64,000 nt of DNA from Orbus hercynius (GTDB lineage Bacteria; Pseudomonadota; Gammaproteobacteria; Enterobacterales; Orbaceae): positions 124,001 through 188,000 of the forward strand of contig NZ_RBWY01000003.1 in NCBI RefSeq assembly GCF_003634275.1, read 5' to 3'. This document shows positions 34,360 to 41,415 of the stretch, piece by piece. A program made the translations under genes and the position numbers. The stretch's first letter is position 1. Each line of letters begins with the position of its first letter. The notes beneath the pieces are model-generated. The model was not told the origin of the DNA and did no database searches. It saw only the letters and a list, made by a program, of their open reading frames with translations.

Positions 34360-37179
34360 ATGTCCATACTGACAACACAGCAACATAAAGTGATGACACA
34401 GTTAGTCAATTGTGATCAAGTATTAGTTTGCCAATATATTGATATTTTAAGCAGAAGTGATTTTATCGTTGAATCATTATCACGCTTTCCCGCTTGGTTA
34501 GCCGAAATCAACATTAATGCCCCTACAGAGGATGAATATCTGGCTTATCAACGCTGGTTAGATGAGCTAATTATGAGGATTCAATCTGAAGAGCAATTGC
34601 TGGCCGTGTTACGCCAGTTTAGACGCAAAATATTGCTGAGAATTAACTGGTCACAAATTGCCAATACGAGCACCACCGAGCAAACACTGGTTCAGTTAAG
34701 CACCTTAGCGGAAGTGCTCATTATTACCGCTCGTGATTGGTTGTATAAACTGAGCTGTCAAGAATGGGGTACACCTTATAGTCATCAAGGCATTGAGCAA
34801 GCATTAGTGATTTTAGGGATGGGGAAACTTGGTGGGGGGGAACTGAACTTTTCGTCCGATATTGATTTGATTTTTGCCTATCCCGAACATGGTGTTACCA
34901 AAGGTGAACGTCGTGAACTTGATAATTCGATCTTTTTTACTCGCCTTGGACAACGCTTAATTAAAGCACTTGAGCACATCACTCAAGATGGCTTTGTCTA
35001 CCGCGTAGATATGAGGCTAAGACCGCTCGGTGACGGCGGGCCGTTGGTGTTGAGTTTTGCATCAATGGAAGATTATTATCAAGAACAAGGCCGAGATTGG
35101 GAGCGTTATGCGATGGTCAAAGCCAAAGTGCTTGGTGATCAAAATTCGCCTTATGCCAAAGAACTCTATCAAATGCTTAAGCCGTTTGTGTATCGTCGAT
35201 ATATTGATTTTAGCGTCTTACAATCTTTACGTAATATGAAAGGGATGATTGAACGTGAGGTCAGACGTCGCGGTTTGCATAATAATATTAAGCTCGGGGC
35301 GGGTGGTATTCGAGAGATCGAATTTATCGTACAAGTCTTTCAATTGATTCGTGGTGGCCGCGTGCCAGCTTTACAAACGCGCTCACTACTGGCAGCATTA
35401 CGTGCGATTGAACATGAAAAGCTGTTAACCATTGATGATGTTGATAAGCTGCATCACAATTATTTATTTCTAAGGCGGTGTGAGAACTTATTGCAAGGGA
35501 TTAATGATGAGCAGACCCAAACTTTACCAGAGGATACCACTGATCAGCAGCGCTTAGCATTAGGCATGGGATTTGATGATTGGCATGATTTTCAACATGC
35601 ACTTGCTGAGCGGATGTTATCGACTCGGGTAATTTTTAATGAGTTAATTGGCATCGATGACCATCAAGGTGAACAAGCAAACTACGACCAACAATTTGAT
35701 GAGCTGTGGGCAACTGATTTAGCTCACAGCGATATTGGCCATGTGTTGCCGCAGCTCAATGCGGAGCAGTCACAGCAGCTTTATCAGCTCATTGTGCAGT
35801 TTAGAGATGGCATTAGTAAACGGACGATTGGCGTTCGCGGGCGTGATATTCTCGATCAATTAATGCCAAGAGTGTTTGCCCTGGCATGTGGAGATGATAA
35901 TCGAATTACGATCTTATCAAGAACACTGCAACTTTTAGTCAATATAGTCAGTCGCACGACGTATTTAGAGTTATTGGTTGAATACCCAAATGCATTAAAA
36001 CAGTTAATTCGCTTATGCGCTGCGTCACCGATGATTAGTGAGCAGCTCATGCGTTATCCGCTATTATTAGATGAGCTGATTGATTTTAATTCGTTATACA
36101 AAACTGTGCCAATGGATAGTTATAAAAGTGAATTATATCAATACTTATTGCGCATTGAGTCTGACGATGAAGAGGCGCTAATTGAAGCGCTAAGGCAGTT
36201 TAAGCAAATGCAATTGTTACATATTGCCGCCAGTGATATTGCCCATATTTTGCCGACGATGAAAGTCAGTGATCATTTAACGTATCTGGCTGAGGCGATG
36301 TTGGATTTTGTGGTACAAATCGCCTGGAATCAAATGGTTTCGCGTTATGGTAAACCCGATTATTTAGCGGAAGATGAGCAAAAAGGCTTATTAGTGGTAG
36401 GGTATGGTAAATTGGGCGGCATTGAGCTAGGTTATGGCTCTGACTTGGATTTGGTTTTTTTATACGATTGCCCAGCAAACAGTATGACCACTGGTCAGAA
36501 AGTCATAGATAGCCGTCAGTTTTATCTGCGCTTAGTACAGCGTATTATTCACTTGTTTAGTATTCGTACCAATTCCGGTATTTTATACGAGGTGGATGTC
36601 AGGCTGCGTCCACAAGGTGATGCTGGATTATTGGCATGCAGTATAGATGCCTTTGCGGATTATCAAAATAATGATGCTTGGACGTGGGAGCATCAAGCGT
36701 TAGTCAGAGCAAGGGTAGTCTATGGTGAACCATTACTCCAAGCGCGCTTTAATCAGATTCGTCATCAGATTTTAATGCAGCCACGAGATAAAGTGTCACT
36801 AAAACAAGATGTGCGCGAAATGCGCGAAAAAATGAGAAGTCATTTAGGCTCTCATGAGAAGACGCAATTTAACATTAAAGTTGATAGTGGTGGTATTGGT
36901 GATATTGAGTTTATATCACAATATTTAGTGCTCAATTATGCGCATCAAGAACCTAAGATGACCACTTGGAGCGATAACGTGCGTATTTTAGAATTAGCTA
37001 AAAAATATCACATTATGCCGGATGATGAGGCTGAAAAATTAACGCAAATTTACATTAATATGCGTAATGAAATTCACCGTTTATCACTGCAACAGCTATC
37101 GAGTAAAGTTGATGGTCAGCTTTTTCAAACCGAGCGGCAATATGTGAGGCATAGCTGGCAACAGTGGCTAATCAATTAG
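34360..37179 (+). CDS. glnE: Bifunctional glutamine synthetase adenylyltransferase/deadenylase
   Basis: Adds or removes AMP on glutamine synthetase in response to PII proteins and glutamine, tuning nitrogen assimilation. At 939 residues it is full length (E. coli 946). The two nucleotidyltransferase halves are plain: [24 protein letters not shown] near residue 165 (deadenylation) and [24 protein letters not shown] near 685 (adenylation), each with the catalytic D-x-D, plus [12 protein letters not shown] and [12 protein letters not shown]. Both [10 protein letters not shown] and SGGIGDIEF are present. Confidence 0.97.
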
Positions 37180-37232
37180 TACAGTTAATCAGCTAACGAT
37201 AAAAATAGCATCAAAAAAAAGACAATGTTGAC

Positions 37233-37269
37233 TTGTGCATTGCACAATTTTCCTGATAATCATTATAAT
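37233..37269 (+). promoter_or_regulatory. Promoter with perfect palindrome and Fur-like dyad before lipoprotein gene
   Basis: TTGTGCATTGCACAA (37233-37247) is a perfect 15-bp palindrome. It overlaps a -35-like TTGCAC (37240-37245), 18 bases from a perfect TATAAT (37264-37269). The dyad GATAATCATTATA (37255-37267) overlaps the -10 and resembles the GATAAT-N-ATTATC core of Fur boxes. The lipoprotein ATG is 32 bases downstream of the -10. Assignment to Fur, or to any regulator of the TTGTGCA palindrome, is inference. Confidence 0.5.
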
Positions 37270-37301
37270 ATTAAATATAAATAATGATATAAGGAATCCT
37301 G

Positions 37302-38690
37302 ATGCGATTATTGTTACTAGCCCTGTCGATTTTTATTTTGGTGGGGTGTGCCTCACCCCGCACAGCACAAGACGCTTACAAAGAAGGTCAATATGTCGAA
37401 AGTATTGAATTAGCAGCGTTATCGGTAGAAGAGAAAGGAGAGTCTAAACTCGATGCCGCTGATTTAGAGGAATTTCGAACCCTTGTCGGTAATGTGATGG
37501 CACATTATGAAAATCAATTACTAACCGCCAATAGAACGGACTACGCAAGTCGCATTAACAGCTATGAAGCTTTACTCCAGATCAAAAATCGTTTGAGTAA
37601 TCGTTTTTATAGCCAGCAAGTTTATTTTTTTAATAATAAGTATGATATTAAGCAGCTTAGACAAGTGATTGCTGAAGAGTATTATGTGTATGGTAATTCT
37701 ATCGATGCTAAAGATGGTGATAGTTATCGTCTTAAAACTAATTTATATCGCAAAGGCTTAGAACAATATAACTATAAAGATATTGAAGCGCTGTATAACA
37801 AGACTAATAAAAAGTATATGCAAGTTGCGGCAAAAGAGTATTACGATAAAGGCACTATACTGGCTGAGTCTGGTTTATACCAATATGCAGCGGAGTCTTT
37901 TGCCAGTGCATCGGAAGTTTATAAACCACTGGGTAAATATAAAAATAGTGATGAACTGTTTGTGGTGTATGATAAAAAATATCGCGCTATTGAAGCTGGC
38001 AAACTTTATCAGCAAGCTGAAGCAATCCGAAAATCGGCGACGACCCATGCTGAATATCGTGAGATAGCCCAGCTTTATCACGACGCTGGGGAAATCTACC
38101 AACCTTATGGCGATTATAAAGGATCAGCAAAATTATTTGAGCAATATCAACAAAAAGGTCAACTAAGAATCTATTTTCCACCAAGCAAATATAGCCAATT
38201 GATACAAGCTAATCTAAAGGATGATTATATTAAGTTTGTGACCAATCCCTCAACGGCAGACCTTGTTATTAATATTAAAGAGCAGAGCCGTTATCGAGAA
38301 TTACCACCAGATATTAGCAAAAAAGCGATGAGTGAAAATCTGGTTGAAAAAACCATTAATGAAACCAATGCTGATGGTGTGACACAATCTAAAGATGTCT
38401 ATAAAACGTATTATTACAATTTACAAACAACGGTACTTGAGAATACGTTTGAATTGACGACCGATATTGATGTTAGTGGTATTTATCGTTACAAAGACTC
38501 AGATCAAATTAGGAAAAGCTCGAGCATGACGAAATATGCTTATTCCGGGCAGGTACCTAATAATTATCGTGATCATAATTCTGGCTCATACGTCTCGCAA
38601 AATAAATTGGCAGAGCAGGCTAAAAAAGAGCAAGAGCGGTATGTTCAAAGCCAATTGTCGAATCTAGCCACTATTTTTGAACGGTTATAA
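37302..38690 (+). CDS. Unrecognised periplasmic lipoprotein with TPR-like helical repeats
   Basis: A 462-residue lipoprotein: short signal peptide with the lipobox ILVGC (Cys16). Residues 20-290 look all-helical, with repeated A/Y/G-rich pairs such as YYDKGTILAESGLYQYAAESFASASEVY and YHDAGEIYQPYGDYKGSAKLFEQY, suggesting TPR or Sel1-like repeats. After about 295 the chain changes to a strand-rich part (LRIYFPPSKYSQLI, DLVINIKEQSRYRELP) and a C-terminal helix. I cannot name a family. The gene stands alone between glnE and feoA; an elaborate promoter precedes it. AAGGAA is its ribosome binding site. Confidence 0.7.
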   Translation: MRLLLLALSIFILVGCASPRTAQDAYKEGQYVESIELAALSVEEKGESKLDAADLEEFRTLVGNVMAHYENQLLTANRTDYASRINSYEALLQIKNRLSNRFYSQQVYFFNNKYDIKQLRQVIAEEYYVYGNSIDAKDGDSYRLKTNLYRKGLEQYNYKDIEALYNKTNKKYMQVAAKEYYDKGTILAESGLYQYAAESFASASEVYKPLGKYKNSDELFVVYDKKYRAIEAGKLYQQAEAIRKSATTHAEYREIAQLYHDAGEIYQPYGDYKGSAKLFEQYQQKGQLRIYFPPSKYSQLIQANLKDDYIKFVTNPSTADLVINIKEQSRYRELPPDISKKAMSENLVEKTINETNADGVTQSKDVYKTYYYNLQTTVLENTFELTTDIDVSGIYRYKDSDQIRKSSSMTKYAYSGQVPNNYRDHNSGSYVSQNKLAEQAKKEQERYVQSQLSNLATIFERL

Positions 38691-38777
38691 AAGTGGCGTT
38701 ATTTTGTAAAATTGAGGCAGGTAAAATTAAATTTTTAGTAGTGCGTATTTCATTCTAAAGTGATTTGTATTAATATC

Positions 38778-38796
38778 GAGAATAATTCGCATTATT
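38778..38796 (+). promoter_or_regulatory. Candidate Fur box upstream of feoA
   Basis: The 19 bases GAGAATAATTCGCATTATT agree with the Fur consensus GATAATGATAATCATTATC at 13 of 19 positions, counted by eye, including the CATTAT half. The site lies 44 bases upstream of the feoA ATG. feo operons in enteric bacteria are Fur-repressed and FNR-activated; I saw no convincing FNR site. Confidence 0.55.
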
Positions 38797-38839
38797 ATTA
38801 TTGTTCTTAACGTATGTTGTTTTAGCAGGATGTTATGAT

Positions 38840-39088
38840 ATGGATACTCAAGAGTTAACGTTAGATCGCCTCACGTTTGGCAAAGAAGCCGTTATTGCCA
38901 AACTATTACCTGACTCATTACCTTTTCGTCGCAAACTACTGGCTATGGGTATTACGCCTGGATGCAAAGTATCGGTTGTGAGAGTTGCGCCACTGGGTGA
39001 TCCGCTCGAAATTAATATGAGAGGATTTTTATTGTGTTTAAGACGTCAAGAGGCTGCGTCAATTGCCGTGGTGGAGATTGAAAAATGA
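38840..39088 (+). CDS. feoA: Ferrous iron transport protein A
   Basis: Small cytosolic SH3-like protein of 82 residues required for FeoB-mediated Fe(II) uptake. The pattern LLAMGITPGCKVSVVRVAPLGDPLEINMRGFLLCLRRQEA is the family core. I use the ATG at 38840 rather than the open frame from 38801, as it gives the usual length and an AGGA stands upstream. The stop overlaps the feoB ATG by four bases (ATGA). Confidence 0.95.
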   Translation: MDTQELTLDRLTFGKEAVIAKLLPDSLPFRRKLLAMGITPGCKVSVVRVAPLGDPLEINMRGFLLCLRRQEAASIAVVEIEK

Positions 39089-41415
39089 GTATAGCATTAA
39101 TCGGTAATCCAAACTGTGGTAAAACGACGCTATTTAATTTACTCACCGGTGCTAAACAGCGTGTTGGTAACTGGCCAGGTGTCACTGTTGAGCGTAAAAC
39201 AGGGATTTTTAGTTATAATAAAAAATCGTATGAAATCGTCGACTTACCAGGTACTTATGCTATAGAAAGTGATACCGAAACCACCTCGCAAGACGAAATG
39301 ATTGCGCGCGATTACGTCTTAACTGAAAAAGATAGTGTGATTGTCAATATTATTGACGCAACCAATTTACAACGCAGTTTATACTTAACATTTCAGCTAA
39401 TTGATCTCAATCTTCCCCTGATTGTGGTATTAAATATGATCGATGCCGTTAATGAGATCGGTGAGCATATTGATACAGAGCAATTATCGCAGCTGTTAGG
39501 CTGCCCAGTGGTGGCAATTTCATCCACCAAGAAGAAAGGTATCGATAATTTGTATCGTGAGCTTGAACGCTTGGCGGTGACTAAGTCAACGGCTAAACCA
39601 ACAATTACTACCTTAGCGGATGCGCAAAATCAAGCGATTGAAAAATTGTTATCATCAGTACCAGCAGAGAGCTACATTAATCAACTTAGTCGTTGGCAAC
39701 TGCTTGAAGCGCTGCTTGATTCACAAAATTTTGCCTTTGATAATGATGAATTGTTGCACATTGAAGCTTGTCGACAAGAGATTGCCGCATGGTGTGACAA
39801 TGAAGTGGATATTGCCATTGCAAGTAGCCGCTATGAAGCGATCGATCAAATCTGTAAAACCGTGATTGATAATCCGCGGGTTGCCAGCTACTCACTGTCA
39901 GATAAAATTGATAGGGTTGCGCTAGGGCGGATTACGGGTATTCCATTCTTTTTATTAGCAATGTACCTGATGTTTATCATTGCCGTTAAATTTGGCTCGG
40001 TCTTTATTGACTTTTTTGATGTGTTATTTGCCACAATCTTCGTCGATGGTCTGTCTCATGTATTAAATATGCTGCATGCGCCTGATTGGTTAACGGTGAT
40101 TTTAGCCGATGGTATCGGCACTGGTGTACAAACTGTCGCGACATTTATTCCCGTAATTGCAGCAATGTTTTTCTGCCTATCTTTTTTGGAGGACTCTGGT
40201 TACTTAGCCCGCGCTGCAATGGTGGTCGACCGGGGAATGCGTGCAATTGGTTTGCCGGGTAAAGCCTTTGTGCCAATGTTAGTTGGATTTGGCTGTGGTG
40301 TACCGGCGATTATGGGCACTCGAACATTAGAGAGCACGCGCGATCGCATCATGTCAATTTGCATGATTCCATTTATGTCGTGTGGGGCTCGTTTGCCTGT
40401 GTATGCGCTTTTAGCGGTTATTTTCTTCCCGAATAATGCCTCAACGGTCGTTTTTATTCTGTATCTTTTGGGTATTGTGGTGGCGATCGTGACCGGCTTT
40501 GTGCTCAAATTTACTTTACTTAAAGGCGATGTCACACCATTTATTATGGAAATGCCGGTTTATCGCATTCCAACTTTACGTAGTATGGCTAGCTTAACTT
40601 GGCAACGACTCAAAAGTTTTATCTTTAAAGCCGGTAAAGCCATCATTTTAATGGTCACCGTACTAAGCGTACTAAACTCGCTTGGTACTGATGGTTCATT
40701 CGGTAATCAAGATTCTGATAATTCGGTGCTTTCCGTAGTCAGTCAAAAAGTAACGCCAGTGTTTGAACCAATGGGCGTGACGGCTGAAAACTGGCCTGCG
40801 ACGGTGGGTATTTTTACTGGTATATTTGCTAAAGAAGCTGTCATTGCAACCCTTAATTCGCTATATTCTATGCAAGATGACAGTGAAGATGATGGCGATG
40901 AGTTTAGCTTAGTAGGTGGTATTAAAGACGCCTTTTTAACTATTCCAGAGAACCTAGCAGGGCTTGGCGAAGCATTCTTAGATCCGCTGGGATTATCTGC
41001 TGTCGATGAAGATATTGATTCCTTACAAAGTAATTTAGATGTGACACCAAGTGCCGTGAGCAAGATTGAATCATCGTTTGGTAATAGCGCGGCGGCTATG
41101 GCATATTTAATTTTCATTTTACTCTATACACCGTGTGCAGCGGCACTCGGGGCGGTTTATCGTGAAGCGGGCGCTAAATGGACTGCATTTGTTGCGGTTT
41201 GGACATTTATTGTGGGCTGGATATGTGCAACAGCTTATTTCCAATTCACGTTGCTCGGTACCTCGTCTTCAGCCATAGCCTGGTTAGTTGGCTTAATGGT
41301 GATATTTGCGCTGATTGTATTAATCATGAAATTTGTTGGCAGACACTGCGCATTTGCGGCGCCGACTTTAGCCAATAAACCGGCTAAATGTAGCAAATCT
41401 AGCTGCTGTTGTTAA
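39085..41415 (+). CDS. feoB: Ferrous iron transporter FeoB
   Basis: Fe(II) permease of 776 residues with an N-terminal GTPase domain: G1 GNPNCGKTT, G2-region WPGVTVERKTG, G3 DLPGTYAI and G4 NMID. The membrane domain contains two Gate motifs (FVPMLVGFGCGVPAIMGTR, MSCGARLPVYALL) and EAVIATLNSLY. The chain ends in a cysteine cluster (CSKSSCCC) often seen in enteric FeoB. Coupled by overlap to feoA, and followed after a hairpin by feoC. Confidence 0.98.
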   Translation: MSIALIGNPNCGKTTLFNLLTGAKQRVGNWPGVTVERKTGIFSYNKKSYEIVDLPGTYAIESDTETTSQDEMIARDYVLTEKDSVIVNIIDATNLQRSLYLTFQLIDLNLPLIVVLNMIDAVNEIGEHIDTEQLSQLLGCPVVAISSTKKKGIDNLYRELERLAVTKSTAKPTITTLADAQNQAIEKLLSSVPAESYINQLSRWQLLEALLDSQNFAFDNDELLHIEACRQEIAAWCDNEVDIAIASSRYEAIDQICKTVIDNPRVASYSLSDKIDRVALGRITGIPFFLLAMYLMFIIAVKFGSVFIDFFDVLFATIFVDGLSHVLNMLHAPDWLTVILADGIGTGVQTVATFIPVIAAMFFCLSFLEDSGYLARAAMVVDRGMRAIGLPGKAFVPMLVGFGCGVPAIMGTRTLESTRDRIMSICMIPFMSCGARLPVYALLAVIFFPNNASTVVFILYLLGIVVAIVTGFVLKFTLLKGDVTPFIMEMPVYRIPTLRSMASLTWQRLKSFIFKAGKAIILMVTVLSVLNSLGTDGSFGNQDSDNSVLSVVSQKVTPVFEPMGVTAENWPATVGIFTGIFAKEAVIATLNSLYSMQDDSEDDGDEFSLVGGIKDAFLTIPENLAGLGEAFLDPLGLSAVDEDIDSLQSNLDVTPSAVSKIESSFGNSAAAMAYLIFILLYTPCAAALGAVYREAGAKWTAFVAVWTFIVGWICATAYFQFTLLGTSSSAIAWLVGLMVIFALIVLIMKFVGRHCAFAAPTLANKPAKCSKSSCCC

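Follow-up and report, generated by a model that had tools for sequence, protein, structure and literature searches.

Our analysis of a 64,000-nucleotide stretch of the Orbus hercynius genome (hereafter the window) assigns a fold and a distribution to a lipoprotein family without a name that occurs commonly among Orbaceae, an insect-gut family, and also in Snodgrassella. The protein joins a helical half of the tetratricopeptide repeat (TPR) type to a C-terminal domain with an LptE/TraT/CsgG-like fold, and its sequence reaches no curated family. At the same time, an attractive story of dual and iron-responsive control, which had been built on the promoter of the window gene, had to be removed as unsupported.

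The original prediction had announced a 462-residue lipoprotein, and a reading frame of 462 codons with a signal peptide and a lipobox is indeed found where it had been placed. The gene and the parts of its product are the following:

37302..38690, + strand: lipoprotein reading frame, 462 aa, with an ATG start and an AAGGA-type ribosome-binding site just 5'; homologues in 28 of 60 near genomes
37302..37349, + strand: signal peptide and lipobox LVGC (Cys16, invariant; residue +2 is Ala, not Asp)
37359..38156, + strand: helical TPR-type half, residues 20-285, with repeated (L/Y)GxYKDS-like motifs, supported by model helices 22-285 and a family-profile match to designed TPR proteins
38157..38687, + strand: beta-alpha-beta domain, residues 286-462, comprising three long strands plus a C-terminal helix; by the model, Foldseek and VIA-align its fold is LptE/TraT/CsgG-like
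38262..38480, + strand: very long beta-hairpin, residues 321-393 (strands 321-355 and 361-393), 22 alignment columns shorter in some members

C16 is invariant in alignments of 27, 22 and 15 proteins, the window lipoprotein among them. The +2 residue is never Asp in the 24 proteins caught by the lipobox pattern, and by eye it is T and A in the 2 of 26 proteins that the pattern missed. Lipoproteins without Asp at +2 are sorted to the outer membrane. Judged on sequence, the window protein has both marks of an outer-membrane lipoprotein, a lipobox Cys and no Asp at +2, and because its N-terminal Cys would be lipidated with no Asp behind it, the protein is predicted to reside in the outer membrane.

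Sequence searches led to no curated family. The window lipoprotein stayed below every Pfam and NCBIfam cut-off, with 15 bits vs 35 for the Pfam TPR gathering score, and its NCBIfam match to an IS5 transposase (20.4 bits vs a cut-off of 275) was dismissed as chance. Likewise, nothing rose above cut-off among the further members viewed together with cut-offs (10 proteins for NCBIfam and 10 for Pfam), the best Pfam TPR match of these 10 members being 20.9 vs 30.1. TPR_12 was the commonest Pfam match among 22 members (8 members; best E 4.1e-4). Other NCBIfam matches of the 22, namely PA5502_lipo (E 3.8e-4), TviA (0.0071) and YqiH (0.0096), concerned one member each, and none of them recurred in 10 proteins rescanned against NCBIfam. 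The LptE family, PF04390, was absent from the matches of the window lipoprotein (E up to 10) and from those of the 22 members (E up to 0.1). Hence the earlier statement that the protein belongs to no recognisable family stands for sequence, where no Pfam or NCBIfam cut-off was reached, but not for structure, where the C-terminal fold resembles a known class; it is only as such a fold resemblance that a known family comes into view. A literature search found no work joining Gilliamella, tetratricopeptide and outer membrane, and the main text of PMC10104596 contains neither "lipoprotein" nor "TPR".

AlphaFold2, run as a monomer on 22 sequences, yielded a confident full-length model (pLDDT 93.7, pTM 0.71), and the C-domain modelled alone reached a pLDDT of 95.4 and a pTM of 0.77. 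In the model, helices extend from residue 22 to 285 and are followed by a beta element at 288-291, a helix at 298-305, a beta element at 310-312, strands at 321-355, 361-393, 397-416 and 425-429, and a helix at 433-461. Both the helical repeats and the strand-rich C-terminal module that had been foreseen are thus visible. The helical half can be taken as a helix-turn-helix repeat solenoid on the strength of the model helices and of the match between the family profile and designed TPR proteins (E 5.2e-8 for the best stretch, residues 177-205). A full-length Foldseek search returned two TPR proteins and nothing else within E 0.001; in VIA-align of the full-length model, LptE, HpaA and TPR chains share the top ranks with Z about 8, and chain 8bvq_D of the E. 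coli BAM complex appears in the full-length structural list at Z 7.5 for residues 175-285. The helical half is also the more conserved of the two, with a mean pairwise identity of 0.42-0.47 vs 0.32-0.33 in the C-domain.

For the C-domain, Foldseek gave no match at 1e-3, the best being LptDE (E 4.8e-3, TM 0.28), with TM-scores about 0.3. VIA-align, which re-examines the top chains already chosen by Foldseek itself, showed 50 entries, 37 of which are by title of the LptE/TraT/HpaA/CsgG/PelC/FlgT class (LptE/LptDE/RlpB, 21; CsgG/curli, 7; TraT, 3; HpaA type, 2; PelC, 2; FlgT, 1; DUF330, 1). The best Z-scores were 8.5 for TraT (9fs5_A; rmsd 5.0 over 132), 8.5 for LptE (5iva_B, LptDE; rmsd 4.1 over 115), 8.3 for HpaA, 7.9 for CsgG, 7.8 for FlgT, 7.5 for DUF330 and 7.1 for PelC, values to be read with the caveat that a Z near 8 is close to VIA-align's stated background and that many rows are LptE solved repeatedly. 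Among the other entries shown, 9 have uninformative titles and 4 have unrelated ones; these 4 rank last at Z 5.5-5.8, where one CsgG chain (5.8) also stands. The weight of the fold argument therefore lies in the consistency of the structural list and not in any single score, and families missing from these lists stay among the candidates. Searched against PDB sequences, the C-domain profile found at best an unrelated match (E 0.71), and hhalign against the LptE of the same genome returned a probability of 2% (E 0.024). Taken as a likeness and not as proof of kinship, the modelled C-domain resembles the LptE/TraT/HpaA/CsgG/PelC/FlgT class of outer-membrane lipoproteins. The outer part of its long hairpin has no hydrophobic face in the window lipoprotein (means -0.07/-1.21 for residues 338-355 and -1.91/-0.82 for 361-376), which disfavours insertion into the membrane; polarity values calculated for 7 of 22 rows show a stronger alternation in some relatives (L041, 1.09/-1.09; L057, -3.19/1.46), which may differ in this regard.

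The reading that we favour, and to which we would give an even chance, is that of an accessory outer-membrane TPR adaptor or scaffold with an LptE-type domain, which docks on an envelope complex or forms one. A TPR superhelix combined with an LptE-like docking domain suggests an envelope adaptor or scaffold rather than an enzyme. The TPR half would provide a superhelical protein-binding surface and the LptE/TraT/CsgG-like domain would dock on an envelope partner, such as an outer-membrane barrel or an assembly machine; as an alternative to docking, the protein may self-assemble through its unusually long beta-hairpin. If the scaffold reading is true, the gene would be a tractable removal target in bee-gut symbionts, for which genome engineering has been published, as described in the accessible part of PMC11389375.

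All of the near genomes with a homologue are Orbaceae (28 of the 36 there), a family whose sampled members include Gilliamella, Frischella and Zophobihabitans. A scan with the single protein matched none of 136 stretches. An alignment search of the genome collection recovered 31 loci, including 7 with Snodgrassella in the title, whose identity is 26-33%. Compilation of the counts at wider ranks revealed that (i) in the order, 29 of 394 matched at E 0.01, 26 strongly and from the same family as the window, and 3 weakly and through the TPRs only, (ii) in the class, one alignment (A2) matched 2 of 369, namely the window and one weak TPR-only case, the other alignment (A5) matched 1 of 369, the window itself, and thin draws of the class gave no further full-length member, (iii) in the phylum, 7 of 398 matched, the window and G988 over the full length and five through the TPRs only, (iv) in Snodgrassella's family, 15 of 83 genomes had a homologue, and (v) in a third family, that of G988, 8 of 195 genomes did so, in one of 44 genera. 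These patchy counts across order, class and phylum show that the lipoprotein family is real, patchy and accessory, and since the gene is absent from 8 of 36 Orbaceae genomes, it is dispensable at the level of that family.

This dispensability bears on a very improbable reading in which the protein would work in the periplasm to activate a peptidoglycan synthase, its C-domain being a spacer or docking part. LpoA and LpoP are TPR lipoproteins that activate a peptidoglycan synthase (a class A penicillin-binding protein), and a TPR half on a lipid anchor would suit the same role; however, no such family is among the Pfam and NCBIfam matches, the gene is missing from those 8 Orbaceae genomes, and the structural rows of the C-domain are mostly LPS-transport and secretion lipoproteins.

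The number and the length of the copies vary within the family. Tandem arrays of three to five family ORFs, some of them short or broken, occur in G022, G027, G033 and G035 (all under the Gilliamella genus code) and in the Gilliamella MAG L053; the tandem loci are L021 3967-9325, L022 3873-7810, L023 3738-7675, L024 3873-8592 and L053 3395-8735. One tandem Gilliamella ORF type is devoid of about 53 residues of the helical half, and L024 carries extra family pieces interrupted by stops. Snodgrassella harbors 528-aa variants with one extra internal helical repeat (L067 6055-7641 and L068 6001-7587), a natural repeat gain. In two genomes of Snodgrassella's family, short C-domain pieces with stop codons lie at second places (L085; G842:C4:47738-47899) and are likely gene remnants. 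The third family contributes, from one genus, a distant full-length member (L103 1459-2721) whose helical half is short of about 54 alignment columns; the missing stretch overlaps, but is not identical to, the one absent from the short Gilliamella copies. The TPR lipoproteins of another family, code f225 (L104-L108), were rejected as members, as only their repeats matched and the three that were translated have C-termini that differ by eye; they measure 458-477 aa and have similar repeats (L104 1015-2448, L106 1081-2481, L107 868-2244).

In the tree, the window sequence falls with its own genus (support 100/99), and Snodgrassella's family appears as two separate groups. Since the fork between Orbaceae, Snodgrassella and the other groups has a support of 52/31, horizontal transfer between Orbaceae and Snodgrassella is a possibility only. 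A mobile origin of the gene is without support, tblastn of the plasmid and phage collections with the window lipoprotein having found nothing. A bolder extension, whose probability we set low, is a new class of outer-membrane complex in which LptE/TraT-like hairpins would form a TPR-crowned ring; the gene would have passed between insect-gut symbionts, here Orbaceae and Snodgrassella, and tandem amplification in Gilliamella would have varied partner recognition in gut colonisation.

Around the gene, the window contains these features:

34360..37179, + strand: glnE, a name given by reading, which lies immediately 5' of the lipoprotein gene in the window's genus and in one other genus
37233..37247, no strand given: perfect 7-1-7 palindrome TTGTGCATTGCACAA, also a 6-bp stem with a 3-nt loop, then TTTT
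37249..37273, no strand given: Fur-like site on the -10, made of two overlapping 19-mers of 14/19 (37249-37267 and 37255-37273) and including GATAATCATTATA; not found in the relatives checked
38778..38796, no strand given: 14/19 Fur-like box belonging to feo, seen again in some relatives
38840..41415, + strand: downstream genes feoA, so named by reading, and feoB, which has its FeoB_C domain at 40450-40608; they adjoin the lipoprotein gene in only 6 of 28 carriers

Pfam analysis of 17 flanking ORFs from 6 loci disclosed no recurring neighbour that would point to a partner. Among the matches in the flanks are, for one Gilliamella, genes of the pseudouridine synthase, Sua5, PHP and amidohydrolase kinds and, for a second Gilliamella, one for GAPDH; Zophobihabitans has a histidine kinase there, and Snodgrassella has metallo-beta-lactamase-fold, TetR and phosphate acetyltransferase genes. 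The flanks of two distant members hold a DEAH-type helicase, an amidohydrolase and a xanthine/uracil-type permease, and a third distant member has ORFs of similar lengths. The lack of any export gene among the 17 ORFs tested tells against a part in an export or exopolysaccharide apparatus, where the protein would be a ring-forming outer-membrane lipoprotein like PelC or CsgG and its TPRs would guide the cargo. CsgG and PelC do figure in the structural list of the C-domain, parts of the hairpin alternate in polarity in some relatives, and TPR domains accompany PelC in the Pel system; yet the outer hairpin of the window lipoprotein has no hydrophobic face, and we regard this role as quite unlikely.

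Six genomes from two genera (G000-G003, G006 and G009) show the order glnE-gene-feo. The remaining 22 carriers, many of them draft assemblies, have the lipoprotein gene and FeoB on separate contigs or at a distance of over 15 kb. FeoB is present in 35 of 36 Orbaceae genomes, including 7 of the 8 without the lipoprotein gene, and therefore feo and the lipoprotein gene do not track each other. The proximity to feo that had been put forward thus holds in the window, where feoA and feoB with a Fur-like box of their own lie directly downstream, but it does not extend beyond the window's genus and one other.

A promoter-like site, TGCACA-17-TATAAT (10/12), whose second hexamer ends at 37269, spans TTGTGCATTGCACAA and GATAATCATTATA; sites of this kind number 11 in 2.2 kb vs 9.1 expected in shuffles. 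Of the two overlapping palindromes described on this promoter, both TTGTGCATTGCACAA and GATAATCATTATA (37255-37267) do lie over promoter elements, but they are 7 nt apart and do not overlap each other. A search for other copies of TTGTGCATTGCACAA found a single perfect one in the 2.36-Mb genome, the palindrome itself, and 7 sites with up to 2 mismatches vs 9 for the reversed control, hence no sign of a regulon, and the reading of the palindrome as a regulon operator was rejected; within the window, the pattern with up to 3 mismatches has 4 sites vs 6.2 expected. The 140 bp upstream of the gene were compared in 21 rows representing 20 distinct relatives (L005 and L041 being one genome), three same-genus genomes included. 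No TGTGCA or TGCACA half-site and no Fur-like site scoring at least 14 (best 13) was present there, so that the Fur box is conserved in 0 of 21 rows. The proposal of two regulators on one promoter is not supported, the palindromes, on whose conservation it had been made to depend, being absent from this interval in the relatives checked.

TTGTGCATTGCACAA may instead be a weak intrinsic terminator or attenuator at the glnE end, with the gene partly expressed by read-through, although on balance we think this unlikely. Its stem folds at -5.6 kcal/mol and is the sole terminator-like site found in 36900-39100, but 1.4 would be expected in shuffles, the fold z-scores are unremarkable (-1.38 for 31 nt and -0.09 for 49 nt, with -2.04 for the whole 122-nt gap), the T tail is short and the hairpin was not found in relatives. 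The position of the gene directly 3' of glnE in six genomes agrees with read-through, as does the gap in one same-genus genome (L033 4154-4190; also L004), where only 35 bp separate the two genes, suggesting that they are co-transcribed in that genome. The lipoprotein gene is probably expressed from an ordinary promoter of its own and/or by glnE read-through.

A Fur score of at least 14 is reached at 13 positions in the 64-kb window, and no 19-mer in the window has 3 or fewer mismatches to the Fur consensus. By chance, 14 is attained in 2.5% of trials by random 122-bp sequences of promoter composition, in 0.8% by those of window composition, and in 4.3% by random 140-bp sequences. As for the feo box, two same-genus genomes have GAGAATAATTCGTATTATT (13/19; P about 0.2 each, not unusual), G009 has GATAATAATTCGCATTATC (16/19; 0/300 random trials), Frischella japonica has the core only (best 12/19), and no box was seen in the examined gap of G001. 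On these data, an iron-responsive envelope protein, with Fur repressing at the -10, a second regulator on TTGTGCATTGCACAA and a coupling to FeoABC uptake, is improbable. It can appeal to the 14/19 site in two overlapping registers on the -10, expected by chance in 0.8-4.3% depending on the background, and to the shared gene order in the two genera, but it has to face the single perfect copy of TTGTGCATTGCACAA, the absence of Fur-like sites of at least 14 and of TGTGCA half-sites upstream in all 20 relatives, the adjacency of feo in so few carriers, and the near-universal FeoB of the family. We reject iron control as a family trait on the upstream comparison together with the distribution of FeoB and feo; as far as these sequences tell, the family as a whole offers no support for iron or dual control, and what was read from the promoter and the feo genes most likely reflects coincidence in this one species or a local feature of minor weight.

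Turning back to the adaptor or scaffold that we favour, the known proteins nearest to it include TPR outer-membrane lipoproteins, of which BamD and LpoA/LpoP are examples. The window lipoprotein shares with them a TPR solenoid on a lipid anchor, with no family match, and these proteins are not known to have an LptE-type C-domain. HpaA, CsgG, PelC, FlgT and the DUF330 proteins belong structurally to the same fold class (Z 7.1-8.3), with no sequence match, and the membrane-spanning hairpins of CsgG were not seen in the window lipoprotein, although some relatives may differ. The modelled C-domain is like the beta-alpha-beta core of LptE (RlpB, PF04390), with its long antiparallel strands and C-terminal helix, and both proteins are lipoproteins; the window protein differs in the TPR half in front, in its very long hairpin and in having no sequence similarity to LptE. 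Identity as LptE is ruled out, because the genuine LptE of the same genome is encoded at G000:C1:177503-177868 (51.7 bits, cut-off 23), between ORFs read as leuS and holA, and the role of binding LptD and LPS is already filled. TraT, a decameric surface-exclusion lipoprotein, has in common with the window protein an LptE-like core and a long beta-hairpin (here strands 321-355 and 361-393), but TraT possesses membrane-spanning helices, whereas the C-domain has only the helices 298-305 and 433-461, the latter rich in charged residues by reading, and a TPR half is added. Identity as TraT is therefore ruled out, and the plasmid collection contained no relative of the window lipoprotein. The TraT decamer and its chromosomal homologues are described in the accessible part of PMC11733297. 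According to the part of PMC12658005 available, the TraT core fold occurs in proteins binding anionic oligosaccharides, LptE is its closest structural homologue, and the long TraT hairpins join neighbours into a ring.
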